Source: Abyssibacter profundi (GTDB lineage Bacteria; Pseudomonadota; Gammaproteobacteria; Nevskiales; OUC007). From it: a stretch of 64,000 nt of DNA. Made by a program: the position numbers and the translations under genes. The DNA is taken from the NCBI RefSeq assembly GCF_003151135.1, contig NZ_QEQK01000004.1:62001-126000 (forward strand), written 5' to 3'. The stretch's first letter is position 1. Each line of letters starts with the position of its first letter. Below are positions 18,920 through 22,538 of the stretch, one piece after another. The notes beneath the pieces are model-generated. The model had not been told where the DNA came from. It saw nothing but the letters and a program-made list of their open reading frames with translations, and made no database searches.

Positions 18920-18947
18920 CGGCCGACTTTCTGTCGGCCGTTTTTTT
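18920..18947 (+). terminator. rpsO terminator
   Basis: Eight-bp perfect stem (CGGCCGAC / GTCGGCCG, loop TTTCT) followed by seven T residues, 15 nt before the pnp start. It is the counterpart of the rpsO-pnp intercistronic terminator in E. coli, so pnp depends partly on readthrough. Confidence 0.9.
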
Positions 18948-18961
18948 GCAACGGATAAATA

Positions 18962-21058: not shown

Positions 21059-21295
21059 ATTTGACTGCCGCGACATCGATGTCAGTGTCGTCTGCATGGA
21101 TTTCCCACGTCAGGACGGCGATTTCGAACGATCGTTCAGATAGAATCCGTCGGAAATCGACACTTTGATGCTTGCTTCACCTCATAGGATTCGTTAATGT
21201 ACCCATTAACAGTTGCTTTACAACGGTTCGGGGAAGCCGAAAGTAACTGCCACGAATCCGGGGGGTGAAGTGGAAAAGGCTCTCGAGGGAGAGTG
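21059..21295. other. gene-free region downstream of pnp
   Basis: No convincing reading frame. It is AT-richer than its surroundings and contains small inverted repeats such as GACATCGATGTC near 21072-21083 and CGATCGTTCAG near 21129. It leads into the degenerate copy 1 of the small-RNA repeat. Confidence 0.4.
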
Positions 21296-21336
21296 CCAAG
21301 GTGCGTGAAAGGCGTGATGCCTTTCTCAAGGAGACT
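21296..21336 (-). repeat. copy 1 (degenerate) of the small-RNA core repeat
   Basis: Shares with copies 2 and 3 the core CCAAGGTGCG, the stem GAAAGGC-N5-GCCTTTC (21307-21325) and AGGAGACT. Read on the minus strand it has only a weak terminator (GGC-ACTCTC...GAGAGCC then TTTT), and I find no good promoter upstream, so it looks like a relic. Confidence 0.6.
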
Positions 21337-21340
21337 AGAC

Positions 21341-21367
21341 AAAAGCCCGGCTAGCCCGGGCTTTTGT
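21341..21367. terminator. bidirectional terminator after pnp
   Basis: Ten-bp stem AAAAGCCCGG / CCGGGCTTTT with a short central loop and T-runs in both directions. It probably ends the pnp transcript on the plus strand. Confidence 0.8.
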
Positions 21368-21484
21368 TTGTCTGCGATTCGCGGCGAGCAGTCCTTCGCA
21401 TGCCCCCGCCCCGATTAGACGATTTGGACATCAGGGCCGTGTGCGGCTGGCCTCGAGCGCCCCGTGTTGGGCCTGTGTTCAGGC

Positions 21485-21597
21485 AAAAAAAAGCCCCCGG
21501 GGACGGGGGCCAAGGTGCGAGAAAGGCACGAGGGCCTTTCTGGAGGAGACTCTGTTCAGAAGACCGCGCCTTCGGCGCCACGTCTTCGTCTATGTTG
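21485..21597 (-). ncRNA. candidate small RNA, copy 2
   Basis: Predicted transcript of about 113 nt on the minus strand. The promoter is TTGGGT (21627-21632), 17 bp, TATACT (21604-21609). Elements in order: a 5' hairpin (21587-21559; GAAGAC...GCGCC-GAA-GGCGC...GTCTTC), a single-stranded GTCTCCTCC anti-Shine-Dalgarno motif, a second hairpin (21541-21520; AGAAAGGC / GCCTTTCT), then CGCACCTTGG and a GC-rich terminator with 8 T residues (21485-21492). Copy 3 has the same order and length. The lower stem of hairpin 1 differs in sequence between copies but stays paired, which supports selection on RNA structure. Confidence 0.68.
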
Positions 21598-21605
21598 CGG
21601 TGCAG
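21592..21605. promoter_or_regulatory. PhaR-like site over the copy 2 start point
   Basis: ATGTTGCGGTGCAG overlaps the -10 box and the start of small RNA copy 2. Shared consensus with three other sites is TGTTGCGNTGC. Known PhaR operators are TGC/GCA-rich, so PhaR is the obvious candidate. Confidence 0.45.
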
Positions 21606-21632
21606 TATAACCGAATTAGGTGGCCGACCCAA
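21604..21632 (-). promoter_or_regulatory. promoter of small RNA copy 2
   Basis: Read on the minus strand: TTGGGT at 21632-21627, a 17-bp spacer, TATACT at 21609-21604. Confidence 0.6.
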
Positions 21633-21677
21633 CCCTATCCGGGTCCTTACCTCGAGCCAGCAACCATGACTCCACGC

Positions 21678-21790
21678 AAAAAAAAGCCCCCGGGGGAGGG
21701 GGCCAAGGTGCGAGAAAGGCACAAGGCCTTTCTGGAGGAGACTCGGGTCAAGTTGCAGCGCCTGTGGCGCAGATCAACTGTCTGATGTTG
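21678..21790 (-). ncRNA. candidate small RNA, copy 3
   Basis: Second member of the tandem pair, also about 113 nt. The promoter is a perfect TTGACA, 17 bp, TATACT. The 5' hairpin (21779-21751; AGTTG...GCGCC-ACA-GGCGC...CAACT) has the same GCGCC/GGCGC upper stem as copy 2 but a different, still complementary, lower stem. It is followed by the identical GTCTCCTCCAG motif, the hairpin AGAAAGGC / GCCTTTCT (21733-21713), CGCACCTTGG and a terminator ending in 8 T residues (21678-21685). The exposed CU-rich segment could pair with ribosome-binding sites. The T-rich tail suggests an Hfq-type RNA, which is an inference. Confidence 0.72.
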
Positions 21791-21798
21791 CGATGCAG
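21785..21798. promoter_or_regulatory. PhaR-like site over the copy 3 start point
   Basis: ATGTTGCGATGCAG overlaps the end of the -10 box and the start region of small RNA copy 3, in the same relative position as in copy 2. Confidence 0.45.
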
Positions 21799-21825
21799 TA
21801 TATGGTTAGCTTACTAATGTGTCAA
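21797..21825 (-). promoter_or_regulatory. promoter of small RNA copy 3
   Basis: Read on the minus strand: consensus TTGACA at 21825-21820, a 17-bp spacer, TATACT at 21802-21797. It is one of the strongest-looking promoters in the window. Confidence 0.78.
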
Positions 21826-21830
21826 CAAAA

Positions 21831-21864
21831 ATGTTGCGCTGCACCCAAGGGAATCAATTCCCTT
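21831..21864. promoter_or_regulatory. PhaR-like site and palindrome between phaR and the small RNAs
   Basis: ATGTTGCGCTGCA at 21831-21843 lies 5 bp upstream of the copy 3 -35 box. Next to it is a perfect 8-bp palindrome, AAGGGAAT-CA-ATTCCCTT, at 21847-21864, four bases beyond the phaR stop. The palindrome has no T-run, so it may be a weak terminator or a protein site. Confidence 0.4.
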
Positions 21865-21867
21865 GCT

Positions 21868-22386
21868 CTAGTCTTTCGTGGAGGTGGGTGACGACGCCTC
21901 GCTGTCGTCCTCTTCCAATTTGCCGCCAGCCTTTCCACGTGGAAGATTCTTCACGAATTCACGACGCACGGCACGCCAGAGTTGCGTGTTTTCAGCCGCC
22001 AATTCCTTGAGCGACTGGAGTGGCGTCGCCGTGCCCAAGCGCGTGCGTAACTGATCTTTCAACTGTCCGCTGCGTTCGATGAACAGCTGGAGCGAAAGTT
22101 CCAGGTAGTGGCTGGCCGTGCTCTGCATGCTGTCGCCATAGAAGCGGATCAGCTGCTCCAGCAACTGTGTACGGAAGAGGGGGTTGCCGCCTTCTTCCTG
22201 GTCGGCGATGACTTGCAGCAGGATATTCCGGGTGATGTCCTGGCGGGTGCGTTTGTCGATCACGACGAACTTCACTTCGTCGATCACCAACTGGCGAATT
22301 TCCTCCAGCGTGATGTATCGGCTAATCGCCGTATCGTAGAGCCGGCGGTTGGGGTACTTCTTGATGACACGAACGTCGTCAGTCAT
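21868..22386 (-). CDS. phaR: polyhydroxyalkanoate synthesis repressor PhaR
   Basis: 172-residue regulator. It has the highly conserved N-terminal PhaR DNA-binding domain (VRVIKKYPNRRLYDTAISRYITLEEIRQLV, residues 6-35) and the PHB-accumulation domain (RNILLQVIADQEEGGNPLFRTQLLEQLIRFYG). Known PhaR proteins repress phasin genes and themselves and are released by binding nascent PHB granules. A TGTTGCGCTGC motif 14 bp upstream of its ATG (22400-22411) suggests autoregulation. No PHA synthase or phasin is encoded in the window. Confidence 0.95.
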   Translation of the reverse strand: MTDDVRVIKKYPNRRLYDTAISRYITLEEIRQLVIDEVKFVVIDKRTRQDITRNILLQVIADQEEGGNPLFRTQLLEQLIRFYGDSMQSTASHYLELSLQLFIERSGQLKDQLRTRLGTATPLQSLKELAAENTQLWRAVRREFVKNLPRGKAGGKLEEDDSEASSPTSTKD

Positions 22387-22399
22387 GGATAGTCTTAAA

Positions 22400-22411
22400 T
22401 TGTTGCGCTGC
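22400..22411. promoter_or_regulatory. PhaR-like site upstream of phaR
   Basis: TTGTTGCGCTGC, the same motif found at the small-RNA promoters, placed 14 bp before the phaR start codon and therefore suited to autorepression. Confidence 0.5.
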
Positions 22412-22538
22412 GGAAGTGTGCCAGATGCCCCTCCTGACGCCTAGCTGGTCGGCCAGAGGCCGGCGAAGTCGTGGCATCGGGTGCAGTCGCCGTCTCTTCG
22501 GCTGATGTGCGCGTCAACCCTTGCGCCGAAGCGCATCC

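Follow-up and report, generated by a model that had tools for sequence, protein, structure and literature searches.

Within the 64-kb window analysed here, the whole stretch of 64,000 nucleotides from contig NZ_QEQK01000004.1 of Abyssibacter profundi, a palindromic motif sits on the promoters of the small-RNA (sRNA) genes linked to phaR, and it is almost certainly the operator of PhaR. PHA granules are a main carbon store and a source of bioplastic. A granule sensor driving dedicated multicopy sRNAs would couple translation directly to carbon storage in many environmental bacteria, among them the Competibacteraceae of wastewater plants. An undescribed RNA family would thereby gain a candidate regulator together with an inducing signal, and an isolated observation on the sRNA MmgR would be extended towards a conserved rule.

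Probable PhaR operators before phaR, the small-RNA genes and the phasin gene

The features of the interval, in gene order on the minus strand, are the following.

22398–22418, no strand: predicted PhaR box before phaR, palindrome CGCAGCGCA (matrix 13.5, rank 7)
21868–22386, minus strand: phaR, PHA synthesis repressor of 172 aa (PF07879 and PF05233; TIGR01848)
21829–21849, no strand: predicted PhaR box just upstream of the copy-3 -35 (matrix 17.2, rank 4)
21820–21825, minus strand: -35 TTGACA of sRNA copy 3 (promoter scan, 17-bp spacer, 11/12 matches)
21797–21802, minus strand: -10 TATACT of sRNA copy 3 (promoter scan; layout conserved across the order)
21783–21803, no strand: predicted PhaR box on the -10 and start of copy 3 (matrix 19.5, rank 2)
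21678–21790, minus strand: sRNA copy 3 (start deduced from the -10; R1 100.3 bits; fold z -2.44; family covariation)
21627–21632, minus strand: probable -35 TTGGGT of sRNA copy 2 (read off the sequence; 17-bp spacer)
21604–21609, minus strand: -10 TATACT of sRNA copy 2 (read off the sequence)
21590–21610, no strand: predicted PhaR box on the -10 and start of copy 2 (matrix 20.9, rank 1)
21485–21597, minus strand: sRNA copy 2 (deduced start; R1 95.4 bits; fold z -2.07)
21271–21337, minus strand: diverged copy 1 (AGUCUCCUUGAG; weak terminator; R1 59.2 bits)

The first-pass annotation had reported one motif at four places in this interval, and the four are exact: TGTTGCGNTGC occurs on the plus strand at 21593-21603, 21786-21796, 21832-21842 and 22401-22411, all inside 820 bp, and nowhere else in the 64-kb window. 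The 3.74-Mb genome holds 21 exact matches, from which about 0.004 would be expected in 820 bp and four would arise by chance with a probability of about 1e-11 (Poisson). The placement had also been described correctly. The site at 22401 lies 14 nt ahead of the phaR ATG (22386), that at 21832-21842 precedes the copy-3 -35 (TTGACA, 21820-21825) by 6 nt, and those at 21786 and 21593 span the -10 hexamers (21797-21802 and 21604-21609) through the small-RNA starts. Read on the minus (gene) strand, the four sites are TGCACCGCA, TGCATCGCA, TGCAGCGCA and CGCAGCGCA, each a YGCRNYGCR palindrome. Since letters of TGTTGCGNTGC differ at these positions in the relatives G001 and G002 (e.g. TGCACTGCA in G002) and the palindrome persists, the operator would be the palindrome and not TGTTGCGNTGC; thus the sites of the first-pass annotation stand, and its motif letters give way to YGCRNYGCR with A/T arms as the true unit.

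For PhaR (AniA) of S. meliloti, the published operator is WNWD2NYGCRNYGCRNH2WNW, as in the bound site GTTTGTTGCGCTGCACAAGAA at phaZ (PMC12542648). A 21-bp PhaR matrix was built from 16 S. meliloti sites, drawn from the promoters listed as efficiently bound (PMC12542648), with no window sequence used; these training sites score 16.8–28.3 against it. When all positions of the window were scored, the four sites ranked 1, 2, 4 and 7 (20.9, 19.5, 17.2 and 13.5), and seven matches reached a score of at least 13 versus a mean of 0.9 in dinucleotide shuffles of the window. All four match the palindrome core, the three sRNA sites scoring 17–21 and the phaR site 13.5. The notion that the motif is equally common at random positions, which the first-pass annotation had named as the adverse outcome, fails on the clustering (4 in 820 bp, 21 genome-wide) and on the shuffles. 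Scored against the same matrix, nine of the 21 genome matches to TGTTGCGNTGC reach at least 12.7, as PhaR sites do, and the other 12 score no higher than 7.2, like background; TGTTGCGNTGC was therefore rejected as a genome-wide predictor of PhaR sites. G001 and G002 also have the box at 21829–21849, with an unchanged spacing of 46 bp, and the changes in G002 preserve the palindrome.

The phaR product carries a PHB_acc_N DNA-binding domain (93.8 bits) and a PHB_acc domain (45 bits), exceeds the cut-off of the NCBIfam equivalog TIGR01848 (144.1 versus 109.45 bits) and shares 38% identity with PhaR of S. meliloti. Of 58 phaR loci examined across the order, some of them duplicates of one gene, 40 have a box scoring at least 13 ahead of phaR, and the box before phaR in the window is likely autoregulatory.

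The first-pass annotation had expected a genome-wide motif scan to hit phasin and PHA genes, which held for the phasin promoter and not for the two PhaC-like loci, where no PhaR box was found by the matrix. The promoter region of the phasin gene (PF09361; marginal on whole-protein score) contains three boxes, one abutting the -35 TTGACA, one overlapping the -10 TATGAT and one further downstream (scores 22.4, 24.0 and 18.5). They are conserved in all four close genomes, at near-identical spacing in G001, G002 and G003, and their layout resembles that of the sRNA promoters. The matrix found no box at a second phasin-like gene (L061). No protein of the genome reaches the NCBIfam cut-offs for PHA synthase (the highest scores, 167 and 160.8 versus 365, belong to PhaC-like proteins); one PhaC-like protein below the curated cut-off does carry the PhaC box GWCMGG and is encoded on the same contig about 22 kb left of the window (L070:1282-2493, plus strand). 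PHA synthesis in Abyssibacter profundi is considered likely from these genes.

Elsewhere, a matrix score of 18.4 was obtained at window positions 18941-18961 directly before pnp (TTTTTTTGCAACGGATAAATA); this site is not a full palindrome, and its score probably comes from the A/T arms. Further PhaR-like boxes in the genome precede thiD and the genes of an OmpA/TSP3 protein, an ANTAR response regulator and a probable oxidoreductase (L044:4455, L049:1998, L054:1994 and L297:1501).

A conserved RNA family and its promoters across the order

Downstream of phaR, the minus strand encodes copies 3 and 2. Both contain GAGUCUCCUCCA, a hairpin formed by GAAAGGC and GCCUUUC, the sequence UCGCACCUU and a strong terminator; the copy-3 core (21744-21678) reads GAGUCUCCUCC, hairpin, UCGCACCUU, terminator. 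The predicted core of about 67 nt presents an unpaired UCUCCUCC followed by the hairpin and a U-rich terminator. By sequence these genes bear the hallmarks of trans-acting sRNAs, namely an own promoter, an intrinsic terminator, a conserved seed and a covarying structure. At gathering score, Rfam matched only tRNAs in the window, and the sRNA family matches no Rfam family. A family covariance model built from five sequences detected the family in 58 of the order's 61 genomes, as a rule close behind phaR (mostly 425-935 nt downstream); outside the order it is rare, since 13 of 369 genomes of the class match and four of those 13 are in the order. In an alignment of 73 members, standard pairs fill 99.2% of the pair cells and nine of 13 pairs show double changes, a result matched by none of 500 shuffles; the alignment was fitted to the model, and partners slid by one column give at most 79%. 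Apart from copy 1, every aligned member has an invariant CUCCUCC, for which no pairing or only weak pairing is predicted; UCGCAC is a second stretch that is conserved and unpaired. This comparison marks the small RNAs of the window as real members of a conserved RNA family.

No PhaR box accompanies copy 1 in any of the three genomes compared (this genome, G001 and G002), though the copy itself is conserved in the genus. Its plus strand (window 21234-21375) sits between pnp and the pnp terminator and, if transcribed, would be extensively complementary to sRNAs 2 and 3 (duplex -119/-116 versus about -70 kcal/mol for shuffled sequence). As a speculation, such a transcript could possibly act as a sponge for the two sRNAs, like Caulobacter CrfA.

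The promoter layout of the family is near-universal, with TTGAC, 17-18 nt and TATACTGCANNGCAACA, the box covering the last -10 bases and the start. Scoring a box as present when at least 13 was reached in the 130 bp upstream of the RNA core, we found it at 51 of 56 phaR-linked copies and at 13 of 14 strong unlinked copies, counts that are not independent because the genomes of the order are related, although the unlinked copies lie in different surroundings. The controls gave 0.9% in shuffles and one of 180 outer-flank tiles. It is hardly credible that the repeats are a by-product of tandem sRNA duplication with no regulatory meaning: copies 2 and 3 are indeed similar tandem copies, but the duplicated unit includes neither the site upstream of copy 3 nor the one before phaR, and the box recurs on unlinked copies order-wide and on phasin promoters.

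Three Salinisphaera-group genomes with no detectable phaR keep the -35, the -10 and the RNA and have no box (0/3). This pattern, supportive of the PhaR link and not decisive for it, also bears on the idea that the conserved letters reflect the RNA 5' end or core-promoter context instead of a protein operator. The overlap of the box with the start, by which it is partly transcribed in each RNA, would suit that idea, but the palindrome occurs as well upstream of the -35, before phaR and at three places at the phasin promoter, and the phaR-less genomes lose the box alone; we regard the idea as very improbable. The RNA also lacks a box in G027, G029 and G037 of the Salinisphaera group, which are phaR-positive and two of which have a promoter altered in a similar way. 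Loss of the box therefore does not strictly follow loss of phaR and may have been an event in this clade.

The same three phaR-positive genomes are what might favour another TGC-N3-GCA regulator binding the palindrome, with phaR as a mere target or neighbour. We rate such a regulator as improbable, since no sites other than those of S. meliloti PhaR went into the matrix, since phasin promoters and the region before phaR also have boxes, and since box presence tracks phaR presence inside and outside the order. The matrix, the phasin boxes and the order-wide boxes favour PhaR itself, and this comparison strongly backs the proposal of the first-pass annotation that PhaR acts on phaR and on both sRNA promoters and in this way gains a post-transcriptional arm.

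A Salinisphaera subgroup (L101, L102, L103, L012 and L014) has a changed RNA promoter that lacks a PhaR box and has a common ATACGAAAGTCGTAC in the spacer from -35 to -10; this stretch is possibly another operator.

Proposed circuit and RNA targets

Operator sequences, promoters, RNA structure, phaR linkage and conservation together form the sequence and comparative basis of a model that we hold to be probable as a whole: PhaR would repress the sRNAs, PHA granules would titrate PhaR, and the RNAs would then block ribosome-binding sites. Free PhaR on the one box before phaR would give autoregulation, and free PhaR on the -10/start box of both tandem sRNA genes and on the box by the copy-3 -35 would exclude RNA polymerase, a mode of repression that fits since the boxes cover -10 and start and flank the -35. 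Once PHA is made, PhaR would be pulled to the granules, and the phasin gene, phaR and the sRNAs would be derepressed together. The UCUCCUCC of the sRNAs would then pair with the strong Shine-Dalgarno sequence of selected mRNAs and lower their translation. We infer the binding, repression and granule release at these promoters by analogy with PhaR in other bacteria and the anti-Shine-Dalgarno action from sequence. In Cupriavidus, PhaR quits its promoters once PHB granules form (PMC9049629), and therefore the sRNAs should rise with PHA.

UCUCCUCC is complementary to strong Shine-Dalgarno sequences, and CUCCUCC could pair with any of them. In the genome, 29 occurrences of the seed complement TGGAGGAGA compare with three of its reversed control; many of the 29 lie away from start codons, and two are the sRNA genes themselves. 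The seed-complement search established no conserved mRNA target. A 13-nt perfect complement of GAGUCUCCUCCAG lies directly before the start of a Phenol_MetA_deg-family gene (L279:1497-1510, minus strand); the match is not conserved in G003, and this gene was rejected as a conserved target. The phasin mRNA, with a 7-nt UGGAGGA here that is weaker in relatives, is a possible target and not a convincing one. It is accordingly conceivable, if unlikely, that the PhaR-controlled RNAs are chiefly decoys (e.g. of Hfq) or serve a single main target and are not broad anti-Shine-Dalgarno silencers, as the lack of a conserved mRNA target from this search and the unexplained, conserved and unpaired UCGCAC would suggest; the near-constant and accessible CUCCUCC argues against it, as does the excess of TGGAGGAGA over its reversed control, many of these matches not being at start codons.

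Known systems and candidates beyond the order

The first-pass annotation knew of no post-transcriptional arm of the PhaR regulon, which is wrong in principle, as S. meliloti PhaR (AniA) binds a box close to the mmgR start site and represses this gene, and MmgR limits PHA and lowers phasin levels in that species (PMC12542648, PMC8401924). PhaR control of an sRNA is thus already known; new are the RNA family, its linkage to phaR, the order-wide conservation and, likely, a second family in Competibacteraceae. A literature search, with subscription papers mostly outside its scope, found no paper on a phaR-linked sRNA family. MmgR (alpha-r8, RF00519) resembles the present RNAs as a trans-acting sRNA with a PhaR box near the promoter start and a tie to PHA and phasin, but the window RNAs score 15.5 bits versus a gathering score of 41 and are not members, and their family differs in being phaR-linked and multicopy with the box on the -10. 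The alpha-r8 siblings SisA-D and the sponge CrfA of Caulobacter crescentus likewise combine multicopy sibling sRNAs, carbon feast and famine, and a complementary RNA (PMC12559287), but belong to another RNA family, and PhaR is not mentioned in PMC12559287. The phaP1 and phaP2 phasin promoters of S. meliloti also have YGCRNYGCR palindromes, two per promoter flanking the -35, whereas the present palindromes sit on sRNA promoters, in Gammaproteobacteria.

The Betaproteobacteria toxic sRNA (RF02278), ncS54 (RF02871) and anti-hemB (RF02837) are also short, terminator-ended sRNAs, but the window RNAs are far below the gathering score of each. RF02278-like sequences carry CUCCUCC as the window RNAs do; RF02278 was nevertheless rejected as the parent family (20.1 and 17.2 bits versus 50), it has no genome-wide match at gathering score in G000, G006 and G008, and among the RF02278-like RNAs of the class the majority start from another type of promoter that lacks a PhaR box. 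The Burkholderia ncS35 was rejected as a homologue, being limited to Burkholderia and not near phaR.

An exact scan for TTGACN{17,19}TATACTGCANNGCAACA in 84,980 species genomes (257 Gb) returned 69 places, of which 48 have the phaR-linked RNA family, 16 a different CCUCC-like RNA, four are seemingly unrelated and one is cut at a sequence end; as the pattern came from the family's own promoters, recovery of the family was expected and the informative part is the scarcity of anything else. The 16 other CCUCC RNAs come from Competibacteraceae, Contendobacter, Plasticicumulans and similar bacteria; boxes cover both the -35 and the -10, and a further promoter often follows downstream. phaR is present in nine of ten Competibacteraceae-type genomes tested and absent in three of the four unrelated ones. 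In a class-wide set outside the order, boxes of at least 13 at CCUCC RNAs were found in 5/11 phaR-positive versus 0/27 phaR-negative genomes (Fisher p = 0.0009, with threshold and grouping picked after the data were seen).

We lean slightly towards PhaR control of CCUCC sRNAs being general in PHA-storing Proteobacteria and having captured at least three unrelated families: alpha-r8 in rhizobia, the phaR-linked family in Nevskiales/Salinisphaerales, and RF02278-like tandem RNAs in Competibacteraceae and Plasticicumulans. If this is true, granule formation itself would trigger a translational brake.

The AATCCTCCTTTGGTGG-type RNAs of Competibacteraceae and Plasticicumulans are often tandem and have PhaR boxes at the -35 and the -10 (L201, L218, L250, L196, L200, L207, L221, L240, L189 and L223); they look RF02278-like by eye and have no Rfam match at gathering score. 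In G171 (L286:2038-2680), phaR is followed by a short gene with three PhaR boxes, whose product is phasin-like by eye with no Pfam match, and the RNA lies in the 3' region of this gene, which suggests a 3'UTR-derived form. G097 also has a CCUCC RNA just downstream of phaR, with boxes.
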